Below are positions 23,546-32,558 of a DNA stretch of 64,000 bases, piece by piece. Positions within the stretch are counted from its first letter, which is position 1; the number at the start of each line of letters is the position of its first letter. The stretch is from Oscillatoria sp. SIO1A7 (lineage in GTDB: Bacteria; Cyanobacteriota; Cyanobacteriia; Cyanobacteriales; Laspinemataceae). The stretch lies in NCBI GenBank assembly GCA_010672965.1, contig JAAHFN010000022.1, forward strand, positions 203,095 to 267,094, given 5' to 3'. A model generated the notes under the pieces. It did no database searches, had not been told where the DNA came from, and was given only the letters and a program-made list of their open reading frames with translations. The position numbers and the translations under genes are program-made.

Positions 23546-23589
23546 TTGACAAGGGTGTTAGATTCACACTACTATAGGTGTAATACCTA
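23546..23589 (+). promoter_or_regulatory. Candidate promoter overlapping an operator palindrome
   Basis: TTGACA (23546-23551) and TACTAT (23570-23575) are 18 bp apart, a sigma70-like promoter. Overlapping the -10 is TAGGT-N5-ACCTA (23575-23589), in the position expected for a repressor site. Binding by the divergent NrtR-like protein is inference. Confidence 0.45.
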
Positions 23590-23602
23590 CACTATAACAG
23601 CG

Positions 23603-24484
23603 ATGAAAGAGCTGTTTGAAGTTGCTGCTGGCTCGATCGCGGGCAGAAACCACCGGCGAATAGGGCTAAACAACCAAGATGCTTATTACGGTTTCAGCTC
23701 CTCGGAGGCAACCCTAGCAGTGGTCTGCGATGGCTGCGGTTCTGGGGCTCACAGCGAAGTCGGGGCAAAAATAGGGGCGCGATTGGTGGTGGAAGCAATT
23801 CGGCGATCGCTTTCCCATCAGTCAGAAGAGTCTCCTCCCGATAGCGCCTTTTTAGAAGAAGTGCGGCAAGAAGTTCTGGTGCGCCTGCAAAGTCTGGCGA
23901 TCGCAATGGGTGGCGACGGATATTCAGTTTCCAAACAAATCATTCATAACTATTTTCTCTTTACCATTATCGGTGCCTTGCTGACTCCAAGGGGTGCAAT
24001 AGTTTTCTCCAAAGGAGACGGCGCGATCGTCGTCAATGGCAAACCCCTTTTCTTGGGACCTTTTCCCGATAACGCGCCACCCTATCTGGCTTACGAACTG
24101 CTTTCCCCTTCTCCAGACCGCTGGCAATTCCAAGTTCATCACCAACTGGCCATTGACGAAGTGGATTCGATTTTAATCGGCACCGATGGCATTATCGACC
24201 TGATGGCGATCTCGGAACAGAACTTTCCCGGCAAGCTAGACAGAATTGGTGCAATAGGACAATTCTGGGAACAAGACAGATATTTTAAAAATCCCGATCT
24301 GGTTCGCCGCCAGTTATATGCGATCGCCCGCGAAGTACCGAAAATGGATTTGGAAAACCGTCAGGTTCATAAGGAAGTAGGTTTTTTGCCCGATGACACT
24401 ACCTTGATGGTGATTCGCCGCCGCCAGCAGAACTACAAAACCCGAAGCATAAACATGGGAGCATCTCCAGACAATAAGCAATAA
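23603..24484 (+). CDS. PP2C-type protein phosphatase
   Basis: This metal-dependent Ser/Thr phosphatase of the PPM family has 293 residues. Motifs visible: NQDAYYGF, the metal-binding VVCDGCGSGAHSEVGA (canonical DGxGG), KGDGAIVV, IGTDGIID and the last metal site DDTTLMVI. No membrane segment or extra domain is present. It is the first gene of an operon with the nicotinamidase-like hydrolase (11-bp spacing) and is divergent from the NrtR-like gene. ATG 23603 is preferred because it starts at the conserved MKELFEVAAGSIAGR; the upstream extension from 23546 would overlap the candidate promoter. The substrate is unknown. Confidence 0.85.
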   Translation: MKELFEVAAGSIAGRNHRRIGLNNQDAYYGFSSSEATLAVVCDGCGSGAHSEVGAKIGARLVVEAIRRSLSHQSEESPPDSAFLEEVRQEVLVRLQSLAIAMGGDGYSVSKQIIHNYFLFTIIGALLTPRGAIVFSKGDGAIVVNGKPLFLGPFPDNAPPYLAYELLSPSPDRWQFQVHHQLAIDEVDSILIGTDGIIDLMAISEQNFPGKLDRIGAIGQFWEQDRYFKNPDLVRRQLYAIAREVPKMDLENRQVHKEVGFLPDDTTLMVIRRRQQNYKTRSINMGASPDNKQ

Positions 24485-28923: not shown

Positions 28924-29735
28924 TTTATTTATTGTGGGACGACCCAAGGGGGGTTGTTTGTCCGTCCTTATTATTTTGGCGGCGATCGCTCGTTAGCTGT
29001 CAAAAACTAGAAATGGGTATCGCAAAAATATGCTTTTATAGCACTACCGCTTAAGGTTAGGACAGTTACAAACGCTCTATTGCAATGATTGCAGGACTTT
29101 TGCTGACTGCTGACTGCCGTTGCAAGAGCGTCTTTGCAGGAGAATCGCATGATAGCTTACTGCTATATACCATTTGCTTGTGTAGCGGGAGCATCCTTAT
29201 GTTAAGATCTGAATTTCTAGGGTCTTGAGGGGTATAAGCGCGCCCGCCTATTTGTGGCGCTTTCGGGCATTGGTGTCAAACAGCGGTCAAAAAGTGGATG
29301 TCCTGCGGGCAGACCAATAACTTTCCCCAAGCGCTTTTAGTAGGGAAATTCTTATGTTGCGATGCCCCGGGTCTTTGCCAAATTCTGCCTCGCCGCCAGC
29401 AAGGGGCGCATCTGCAGCATAAGAATTCCTAAAGAAAGTAAGCGGGAATTCCAATAGGCGATTTTGCTGCCTCATAAAGAAATTAATCTGGGTTGATGAC
29501 TCCCTTTATATAATAAAGAACAGTCTTTTTAGGGACTTGTACAAAATAAAATAAAGCGCGATCGCCTTCTCGCTTGCAACAGCCTGCGGAACTGGTATAT
29601 TATTAAGCCGCAAGTCCCAATACCCGACATTTTTGCCCCGACATTGAAGTGCAGGGACAAACCCCTCCTGTGTGGTAACTGCGTGGGGAAAGACCCCCTA
29701 ATAAGCCCCCTAGAAAATTGTCCCACCTGCAAGCT
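28924..29735. other. Long intergenic region before the WD40 gene
   Basis: Repeat fragments include TATAGCACTACCGCTTAAGG with AAACGCTCT (about 29037-29080, related to 59350-59395 and 27245) and GCTGACTGCTGACTG (29103). A possible promoter for the WD40 gene would lie after 29500. I see no gene. Confidence 0.4.
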
Positions 29736-32558
29736 ATGGAAACCGTCGCGCCCATGCATATAACTGAAGATAGGGAACTGGAAAAAATTGGAGCCAATTT
29801 GGAAGACTCCGATCTAGAAGAAGTCACTACAACTAGACTGAACGTTTCAGGGGATTTGCCCCCCAAGGAGCGCGACGTTGAGGAAGCCCCCACTAACATC
29901 GGCGTTCCTATCGGTCAACCCCGCAAAGCATTTATCGGTGGCAGGGAAGTTGCTACCTTTACAGGGCATACCTCCTCGGTTACTTCGGTCTGTCTTAGTC
30001 GAGACAGTCGAATTGCTATCTCCGGAGGTTTTGACGGCACTCTAAAACTCTGGGAAATACCTGTAGGGCGCAGTTTGGGGACTTTAAAAGGACATACATC
30101 TTGGGTAAACTCAGTCTATCTGAGTCTCAATAATCGATTTGCCCTCTCCGGGAGTTCTGACGATACTATCAAACTGTGGGAAATTTCTACAGAACAATGT
30201 TTGGGAACTTTTGAAGAAGATACATCGGAGGTGACCTCAGTTTGCCTTAGTGCCGACAATAGATTTGCTTTATGCGGAACCGACCATAACACCATGAGCC
30301 TTTGGGATTTATCATCCGGACGTCGTTTGCGCTCATTTGCCGGTCATACAGATGACATAACTTCGATCTGTCTGAGTGCAGACAATAAACTCGCCCTGTC
30401 TGGCAGCAAAGACAACGCGATTATGCTCTGGGAAGTCGCTACGGGACGCTGTCTGCGCGTGTTTGCCGGTCATACTTGGGTGGTTAATTCAGTCTGTATG
30501 AGCGCCGATGGAAAATTTGCCCTATCCGGCAGTTCTGACGGCACCCTTAATCTCTGGGAGGTGGAGACTGGCAAGCGATCGGAAAGCTTTAAAGGACATA
30601 CATCTTGGGTAACCTCTGTCGGTTTGAGCGCCGACGGGCGATTTGCTATCTCTGGCAGCGGCGATGGTACGATAAAACTGTGGGAAGTTGGCACCGGAAA
30701 CTGCGTGGGGACTCTAGAAGGACATACATCTTGGGTCAATTGCATCTATCTGAGCGCGGATAGCCGATATGCTATTTCTGGAGGCGATGACAATAAGCTG
30801 AAACTCTGGAGTTTGGATTGGGAATTCGAGAATCGCCAGCTAGCGGATTGGGATGAGGGAGCGCGTCCCTATTTGCAAAATTTCCTAACCCTACAGACAC
30901 CCTATGCCGCCGAATTACCAAAAGACCGCTTCCCGAGGGAGGAAGAAATAGATAGAGCGCTGGTTCGTAGCGGCAGTCCGAGCTGGGCGGAAAAAGATTT
31001 TCAAACCCTGCTGTATAATCTCGCCTGCGCTGGTTATGGTTGGCTGAGACCGGAAGGAGTGCGCCAAAAAGCGATAGAAATGGCAGGCGAAATGGCAGGC
31101 GAAATGGCAGGGGTTAGATTTTTGGAAAAAGAAACGCTGCCTCCAAATCCATCATCTGCACCTTTGTCCTCCCCCGTGCGATCGCCTGCTATCAGTCCCG
31201 CGACAGAAAAGGCGGCGAAAGTAATTTTGACCTTTATTGCCGGTAGTATAAAAGGACGGGAATTTGTATTTGAGAAACGCACGACTCGTATTATAGGGCG
31301 CGCTAAGGATTGCAACTTTATCCTGCCCGATGACAAAGAACACCGGACAATTTCGCGCTATCACTGTTTGCTGGATATCAACCCCCCTTATATTCGCGTG
31401 CGCGACTTCGGCAGTCTCAATGGCACCTTCGCGAACAACCAAAGAATCGGCTCGCGCAAAGAGCTGGCCAATGGCGCAGAAAATACTCTAGAAAATAAGC
31501 CAGAAAATAGGGAATGCGAGCTGTTGGATGGGGATATTCTGAAAATGGGGAATATCAGCTTGCAAGTTAGGGTTGAGGGAAAAAGCTCTACAGTGCCTTT
31601 GGATTTAGATTCTCTGGCTTTGGATCTGGGAAAACTATCTGGTGGCAGGGTGAAGCGATCGCTACAAAATAGCTCTGCCAATCTGCCTGCTATCGAAGGC
31701 TACGCGACTCTGGTAGAGCTGGCTAAGGGAAAAGGCAGTGAAGTCTATTTAGCAGATAATATTGAAAGCGGCGAAGAAGTGGCGCTTAAAGTTATGCGTT
31801 GCTCCGATGAGGCAGGCTCTCCCCAGGCTATAGATACTTTCCTGCGCCAGATAGAAAATACGAAAGCCTTGCAGCATCCCCATATTTCTCAAATCCTAGA
31901 TTATGGCTATGAAAATGGCACCTTCTTTTTGACCATAGACTATTGCGATAGCGGCAGCATAGCCGATTTAATGCGACGGCGCAAAAAAACTCTATCTATT
32001 AATGAAGCAAGAACGATAATTTTCCAAGTCTTAGATGGTTTGGAGTACGCTCACAATGCCGAGATTCCCTATGTCAAACAAAAAGACGGTCGTTTTAGTA
32101 AGGGAACAGGATTTATTCACGGTTGTCTGCAACCGGCAAATATTCTGCTCGTCCAAAAGAGCGATCGCTTCGTTGCTAAAGTCGGTAACTACGGATTAGC
32201 TAGAGCTTTTGACTGGGCGGGGTTAAACGGTCGTACCCGAACTGGAGCTAAGAGTATCCTGCCTGCTTTTATGCCTCGACATCAAGTAATAGATTTCTAT
32301 TATGCCAAGCCCGAAATAGATGTCTGGGCGGCAGCGGCTTGTCTTTATTATATGCTTACTGGCAGTTATCCTCGGGACTTTAAAGGTAAAGATCCTTGGC
32401 TGGCGACCTTGCAAACTAAGGCTATACCAATTCGCGATCGCAATCCCTCGATTCCCAAACCTCTTGCCGCTTTAATTGACTTGGCTCTAAGCGATCGACC
32501 CCATATCCATTTTAAAACTGCTATCGAATTTAAGAAAGCTTTGACTACTATTGTCTAA
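29736..32558 (+). CDS. WD40-FHA-pseudokinase protein
   Basis: The 940-residue protein has three parts. Seven WD40 repeats (about residues 70-365, each ending in xLWE) form a propeller. An FHA domain (about 495-615) has the phosphothreonine-binding residues GR 521-522, S540, H543 and NGT. A protein-kinase fold runs from about 655 to 940. The kinase keeps the ATP lysine (VALKVM, K685). The catalytic loop is HGCLQPAN (795-802) instead of HRDLKPxN, and DFG is replaced by NYG (818-820). Both catalytic aspartates are therefore gone. It should bind phosphoproteins and partners rather than phosphorylate. A MAGE triplet repeat lies in the linker. ATG 29736 is preferred over a TTG 18 nt upstream. Confidence 0.9.
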   Translation: METVAPMHITEDRELEKIGANLEDSDLEEVTTTRLNVSGDLPPKERDVEEAPTNIGVPIGQPRKAFIGGREVATFTGHTSSVTSVCLSRDSRIAISGGFDGTLKLWEIPVGRSLGTLKGHTSWVNSVYLSLNNRFALSGSSDDTIKLWEISTEQCLGTFEEDTSEVTSVCLSADNRFALCGTDHNTMSLWDLSSGRRLRSFAGHTDDITSICLSADNKLALSGSKDNAIMLWEVATGRCLRVFAGHTWVVNSVCMSADGKFALSGSSDGTLNLWEVETGKRSESFKGHTSWVTSVGLSADGRFAISGSGDGTIKLWEVGTGNCVGTLEGHTSWVNCIYLSADSRYAISGGDDNKLKLWSLDWEFENRQLADWDEGARPYLQNFLTLQTPYAAELPKDRFPREEEIDRALVRSGSPSWAEKDFQTLLYNLACAGYGWLRPEGVRQKAIEMAGEMAGEMAGVRFLEKETLPPNPSSAPLSSPVRSPAISPATEKAAKVILTFIAGSIKGREFVFEKRTTRIIGRAKDCNFILPDDKEHRTISRYHCLLDINPPYIRVRDFGSLNGTFANNQRIGSRKELANGAENTLENKPENRECELLDGDILKMGNISLQVRVEGKSSTVPLDLDSLALDLGKLSGGRVKRSLQNSSANLPAIEGYATLVELAKGKGSEVYLADNIESGEEVALKVMRCSDEAGSPQAIDTFLRQIENTKALQHPHISQILDYGYENGTFFLTIDYCDSGSIADLMRRRKKTLSINEARTIIFQVLDGLEYAHNAEIPYVKQKDGRFSKGTGFIHGCLQPANILLVQKSDRFVAKVGNYGLARAFDWAGLNGRTRTGAKSILPAFMPRHQVIDFYYAKPEIDVWAAAACLYYMLTGSYPRDFKGKDPWLATLQTKAIPIRDRNPSIPKPLAALIDLALSDRPHIHFKTAIEFKKALTTIV

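Follow-up and report, generated by a model that had tools for sequence, protein, structure and literature searches.

Cyanobacterial FHA-kinases have been described before, as FHA + Kinase proteins in the available text of PMC1262709 and as FHA-bearing members of cbSTKII, such as Tery_0088 and alr0548, in that of PMC2176072. The latter, in the sections at hand, places Tery_0088 among nine proteins whose motif deviations were deemed tolerable, and counts five cyanobacterial kinases lacking the HRD Asp among 286, after the exclusion of 17 proteins without parts of the motifs. Of the seven bacterial families treated in the accessible part of a 2025 review (PMC12599244), five consist wholly of pseudokinases and two, CP1 and DYD, are mixed. 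Here we describe a protein of Oscillatoria sp. SIO1A7, encoded within a stretch of 64,000 nucleotides (hereafter the window), that joins a WD40 propeller, a linker, an FHA domain and a kinase fold predicted to be catalytically dead.

The open reading frame, the domains and the motifs quoted in an earlier note on this DNA were confirmed (Table 1). Pfam models matched seven WD40 stretches in the 940-aa protein, an FHA domain at residues ~519 to 581 (55.6 bits, cut-off 20.7) and Pkinase at residues 657 to 881 (88.2 bits, cut-off 31.7). An AlphaFold2 model built with 16 sequences placed 28 strands in residues 70 to 359, corresponding to seven blades of four, in agreement with the seven-bladed propeller proposed in that note. 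Structure prediction of the kinase region, which had been suggested as a check, gave the kinase-fold elements in the expected order. Modelled alone, the FHA-kinase part reached a pLDDT of 73.9 and a pTM of 0.76, and its best Foldseek matches were Staphylococcus aureus Stk1/PknB (TM-score by target 0.81) and Mycobacterium tuberculosis PknA, both at about 0.8; the full-chain model had a pTM of 0.46, with no confidence in the linker.

Table 1. Features of the WD40-FHA-pseudokinase gene and of neighbouring genes in the window
Feature	Coordinates	Strand	Remarks
Whole gene, WD40(7)-linker-FHA-pseudokinase, 940 aa	29736..32558 (ATG to stop)	+	alternative in-frame start TTG at 29718
Seven-bladed WD40 propeller, residues 71-361	29946..30818	+	collinear with orthologue L060, 64% identity
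Linker, residues 362-492	30819..31211	+	two segments common to other proteins: WDEGARPYLQNFL and SPSWAEKDFQTLLYNLACAGYGWLRPEGV
FHA domain region, residues 493-620	31212..31595	+	G521, R522, S540, R541, H543, N562 and G563 all present
Kinase-fold domain, residues 656-940, predicted catalytically dead	31701..32555	+	
Beta3 Lys685 (VALK), retained	31788..31790	+	
Gln705 instead of the alphaC Glu	31848..31850	+	
HGCLQPAN replacing HRDLKPxN, residues 795-802	32118..32141	+	
NYG replacing DYG of the FHA-kinase family, residues 818-820	32187..32195	+	
Three tandem giant genes, 1826-1828 aa	33535-50600	-	kinase motifs HKDIKPAN or HKDIKPTN, DFS
PP2C-type protein phosphatase	23546-24484	+	PF13672, 76.9 bits; ~5 kb upstream of the WD40-FHA-pseudokinase gene

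Alignment to the family placed VALK at residues 682 to 685, HGCLQPAN at 795 to 802 and NYG at 818 to 820. The HRD Asp is thus Cys797 and the DFG Asp is Asn818, with Lys685 kept, as the earlier note had read. Five further changes relative to the family had escaped that note: the glycine loop carries G663A and G668S, the alphaC Glu is altered by E705Q, and the catalytic loop has R796G and K799Q, making seven active-site changes in total. Lys685, Gly665, Asn802, Gly820 and Asp862 are retained. At what we read as the site corresponding to the APE motif, the window protein has PRHQ; since the family mostly has PRQQ or CRQQ there, this deviation is not special to it. The protein therefore has a kinase fold that has lost two of the three residues (beta3 Lys, HRD Asp and DFG Asp) of which the loss of at least one defines a pseudokinase, and with C797 and N818 it lacks both aspartates expected of an active Hanks-type kinase. 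The extra lesions strengthen the earlier reading of a dead kinase, and we infer from the sequence that the window protein does not phosphorylate.

Relatives were drawn from 17 loci of a related-locus search, 59 genomes near that of the window, 388 genomes of the class, of which 27 matched at E 1e-40 or better, and 36 genomes from one additional family, of which 11 matched. A subset of the matches was fetched; 64 rows were aligned and 50 used, and six added later brought the family to 56 members. With the GR, SxxH and NG residues of its FHA domain, located N-terminal to the kinase, the window protein belongs to this FHA-kinase family, and it was 41 to 54% identical to 15 members over the FHA-kinase part. 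In the 56-row tree, in which 32 of the 53 inner branches were starred, it grouped with the remaining fused members and three separate ones in a clade of 18 rows (95/92), on a long branch and with no firm position inside the clade. Most members read HRDLKPxN and DYG. Homologues with intact HRD and DFG, which the earlier note had named as evidence against a dead kinase, do exist in part: L056, a 462-aa FHA-kinase copy in the window's own genome (48% identical, HRD and DYG intact), homologues in genomes of the same family and the orthologue L060 keep both aspartates, which does not make the window protein active. A search for the two substitutions in homologues, also proposed there, led us to reject a conserved HGC/NYG pseudokinase signature: among counted members, HGC is private to the window gene and NYG occurs elsewhere only in L021.

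The HRD Asp was missing from 15 of the 56 members, replaced by C, T, N, A, R, S, Q or H; the nine left-out rows covering this position (duplicates aside) all keep it, which would give 15/65. Parsimony on the 56-row tree required 10 changes, and a count without regain likewise gave 10 loss groups, suggesting that the HRD Asp was lost about ten independent times in the cyanobacterial FHA-kinase family. Loss affected 9/15 WD40-fused proteins against 6/41 others (Fisher p 0.0015) and was richer in the family (15/56) than among the other kinases of the window's genome (10/95; p 0.013), both tests serving as a guide only, given that shared ancestry is ignored and relatives were recruited by similarity to a degenerate query. 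The variety of replacements argues against one new conserved chemistry, and with seven active-site changes at once it makes it very improbable that the window protein remains active as a kinase or uses its fold, through other residues, for some different chemistry such as AMPylation. Such a reading would draw on the complete predicted fold, on the retained beta3 Lys and catalytic-loop Asn, and on SelO and SidJ, given in the available text of PMC12599244 as examples in which the kinase fold has changed motifs and has acquired a new chemistry. Losses were also seen between relatives. In Trichodesmium, three FHA-kinases of one clade (L018, L019 and L021) read HCH, HRH and HGR, without the HRD Asp, and the nearest Okeania copy, L017, is intact. 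Similarly, the FHA-kinase gene beside a fused giant (L058:3872-5296 and L057:9561-11090) is intact in G008 (HRDLKPGN/DYG), and its counterpart in G004, a genome with the same genus code, is dead (HGNLKPSE/VFG).

We then scored the 15 losers at the 89 columns whose conservation reaches 95% or more among 30 strictly intact members. Retention averaged 0.725 over 8 catalytic columns against 0.903 over 52 other conserved kinase columns (Mann-Whitney p 0.002), and the difference recurred with nine representatives (p 0.003). The alphaC Glu was kept in 40% of the losers, Gly663 in 60%, Lys799 in 67%, Gly665 and the DFG Asp in 73% each, and Asn802 in 80%; some non-catalytic columns, e.g., 740, 794 and 823, decay equally. 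Kept in 15/15 losers were G521, R522, S540, R541, H543 and G563 of the FHA domain and Lys685, H795, P800, R848, D862, W864, R880 and D915 of the kinase, and FHA Asn562 was replaced by His in 6/15 losers compared with 2/29 intact members having that region. Because the catalytic columns decay and the FHA-site residues stay, catalysis appears to have been released while the fold and most of the phosphothreonine site were held.

A single further short form, L060 (G001, of the same family as the window's genome), was identified; it has 905 aa and the same domain order. Identity to the window protein was 64% in the propeller, 48% in the linker, 51% in the FHA domain, 39% in the N-lobe and 51% in the C-lobe; orthologous blades were 0.67 alike, against 0.54 for other blade pairs, and were the best in their row for 5/7 blades. 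The two proteins were sisters in an early small tree (96/88), not in a larger one, and sisters again once the linker was added (90/89). L060 shares the E-to-Q, R-to-G and K-to-Q changes, keeps both the HRD Asp and the DFG Asp, and has no glycine-loop region. It is itself predicted to be inactive, and the two proteins look disabled by different routes; because L060 keeps both aspartates, deadness is not conserved at the HRD/DFG residues. The divergent N-lobe, below the FHA domain, C-lobe and propeller, could also indicate a former kinase fusion on its way to becoming a pseudogene, as could the different Asp replacements of different lineages and the longer tips of HRD-Asp-lost members (median 0.48 against 0.16, p 0.0096, a difference that also fits decay and is not significant within fused proteins alone, p 0.14). 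We consider such decay unlikely, since 940 codons are open, the FHA-site and C-lobe signature residues are invariant in the losers, and the propeller has stayed collinear with that of L060 at the identity given above.

How the fused form arose can be approached through the linker. Of 388 genomes of the order searched for it, 23 were positive; 20 stretches were fetched, and L063 was added. At eight loci an unfused WD40 ORF carries the whole linker, and at five of these (L063, L277, L278, L280 and L291) it is followed on the same strand, after a gap of 4 to about 2000 bases, by an ORF of the FHA-kinase family in which HRD and D(Y/F)G are intact; the L291 kinase is without FHA, and the WD40 ORFs of L277 and L278 are short or broken into overlapping pieces. 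No such kinase was found within the stretch examined at the other three loci (L276, L279 and L290). At L289, not counted among the five, a WD40 ORF is followed by a kinase ORF that is broken and has just the second linker segment, and then by an intact FHA-kinase. The kinases of L277, L278 and L289 fell inside the clade of fused proteins in the 56-row tree, and those of L063, L280 and L291 outside it. Since a split WD40-linker gene precedes an intact kinase in 5/8 loci, the window gene appears to have arisen by fusion, with its kinase part turning into a pseudokinase. The occurrence of the same parts joined in one genome and adjacent in another suggests a joint action of propeller and FHA-kinase. 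The linker also occurs in pieces in family f28, where the giants L282, L284, L292 and L293 have its first half or WD40, with ankyrin repeats at the end by eye. In the same family, the second segment ends ORFs of ~480 to 520 aa (L281:4162-5688, which has a kinase domain, and also L283, L285, L286 and L288).

In other relatives the same linker is part of much larger proteins. ORFs of 1635 to 1881 aa with an N-terminal kinase, WD40, the linker, FHA and a C-terminal kinase were found in G004, G006 and G008, all of the same family as the window's genome (G006 scores the same as G004 and was not counted apart), and in nine f56 genomes; L274 and L275, of family f14, are two further giants with both heads intact. 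Pfam, run on the front parts of L057, L098 and L104 and the back part of L098 only, found a kinase in all three front parts and TPR above the cut-off in two. By a three-residue test on 13 giants, both heads were dead in 7, one in 3 and none in 3. Nine f56 giants (L097 to L105) carry Thr-Phe-Ala rich stretches (AFATAFATEF-like) directly preceding FHA. These stretches, which were not seen in the window protein, are a possible phosphothreonine tail for same-chain binding. An FHA domain binds such a tail within its own chain in GarA and OdhI.

The beta3 Lys was present in 59/59 covered rows (of 64 rows, with fragments and two duplicates included), even where the alphaC Glu is lost, and it was kept in 11/11 C-terminal heads compared with 5/11 N-terminal heads of the same giants (Fisher p 0.012). 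This invariance could mean that some nucleotide chemistry survives at Lys685. It is possible, if doubtful, that Lys685 and Asn802 still hold ATP or another nucleotide and that this, with no transfer of phosphate, switches the binding of partners by FHA or WD40. However, the window protein has Asn for the DFG Asp and has lost two loop glycines, L060 has no glycine loop, and the Lys may be kept for folding. More speculatively still, cyanobacteria may possess a two-headed kinase system whose heads are switched off independently, with the window protein as an end-point short form (propeller, phosphothreonine reader and nucleotide-holding dead C-terminal head) that regulates active FHA-kinases. Eukaryotic JAKs, with their paired kinase and pseudokinase domains, would offer a parallel to such an arrangement. 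The short form may derive from a giant by loss of its front half, but successive trees disagree on the placement of the window protein and L060. Elsewhere in the window's genome, a search for a giant orthologue with the N-terminal part of L057 gave only partial kinase matches (23 to 38% identity), and the linker was found once, in the window gene.

The 9.08-Mb genome of the window yielded 98 Pkinase matches, fetched as 96 stretches, whose residues were read by automatic alignment with weak and fragmentary matches included. The HRD Asp was missing in 11/96 stretches and the DFG Asp in 6/94 covered ones; both were missing in 4 and either in 13, the window gene being among them in each count. Loss of these aspartates is uncommon in this genome, not unique, with about a dozen cases. 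Three other kinase-like stretches, L240, L243 and L245, are also without both.

The earlier note had further proposed a link to the three giant kinases next to the gene, and this part did not hold up: they run convergent to it, no such neighbour was recognised around L060, and position is the sole tie. That the window protein reads phosphorylation made by these giants is hence extremely unlikely, even though their kinase domains keep both aspartates and a PP2C phosphatase lies in the same window. They are ~1 kb away, kinases are frequent in this genome (96 stretches in 9.08 Mb which, clustering ignored, would place ~0.2 within 10 kb of a given gene on either side), and at the L060 locus neither a giant nor any kinase-like ORF was recognised by eye among ORFs of at least 150 aa over 9 kb, so that synteny with giant neighbours found no support there. 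The first of the tandem giants also matches histidine-kinase models. Genes of the writer, reader and eraser types co-occur in this window by position alone.

Taken together, we favor, as a reasonably probable account, a pseudokinase member of the FHA-kinase family that is fused to a WD40-linker protein, encoded by a separate neighbour gene in some genera, and that would act as a phospho-dependent scaffold without transferring phosphate. The scaffold role put forward in the earlier note is plausible and is the best inference from sequence, since the FHA phosphothreonine site has all its residues here and almost all of them in the other losers. The FHA domain would dock on a partner whose threonine an active kinase has phosphorylated; the intact L056 of the same genome is one candidate writer along with dozens of other kinases. 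The propeller would hold a second partner. The pseudokinase lobe may offer a protein-binding or allosteric surface, possibly with nucleotide contact via Lys685 and Asn802.

No WD40-FHA-pseudokinase was described in the literature searched (titles and abstract openings). The protein is in one sense of an ordinary kind, a bacterial pseudokinase of the FHA-kinase family, but its architecture is one not met in those papers. The described FHA-kinases share the FHA domain N-terminal to the kinase with conserved GR, SxxH and NG, but in the available descriptions consist of FHA and kinase only, whereas the window protein adds WD40 and a linker in front and its kinase is predicted to be dead. By sequence, the nearest solved relatives of the FHA domain are those of GarA, OdhI, Rv1747 and TB39.8 (PDB; best E 3.7e-5); unlike the window protein, the matched chains are short (100 to 186 aa), without WD40 or kinase. 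The Hanks-type SpkE (Slr1443) of Synechocystis, one of the five kinases counted in PMC2176072 as lacking the HRD Asp, likewise has no such residue and is reported to be without kinase activity in the accessible parts of PMC2176072 and PMC3102658, and its inactivity counts as a precedent for a dead kinase here. The pseudokinase MviN of the ActPs3 family, which works with FhaA, resembles the window protein as a bacterial pseudokinase acting with an FHA domain. In MviN, according to the available text of PMC12599244, a phosphorylated pseudokinase tail recruits a separate FHA protein and the beta3 ATP Lys is lost (VALT in its table), whereas the FHA domain is in the same chain here and Lys685 is present. 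CP1, described in the same part of that review as found mainly in cyanobacteria and proteobacteria with ~40% pseudokinases, is a mixed family like the FHA-kinases. Its pseudokinases are tied there to a COG3899 domain; the window protein gave no ATPase-family match to NCBIfam models (whole chain) or Pfam models (linker-FHA and kinase pieces). Bacterial pseudokinases have been little studied, and the FHA-kinases are another mixed family beside CP1 and DYD, with about ten apparent losses, intact sisters and a split state beside the fused one. This makes them a good case with clear tests. The series that nature provides here allows one to ask which functions are left to a kinase fold that no longer catalyses, and whether the joining to a scaffold precedes that loss.
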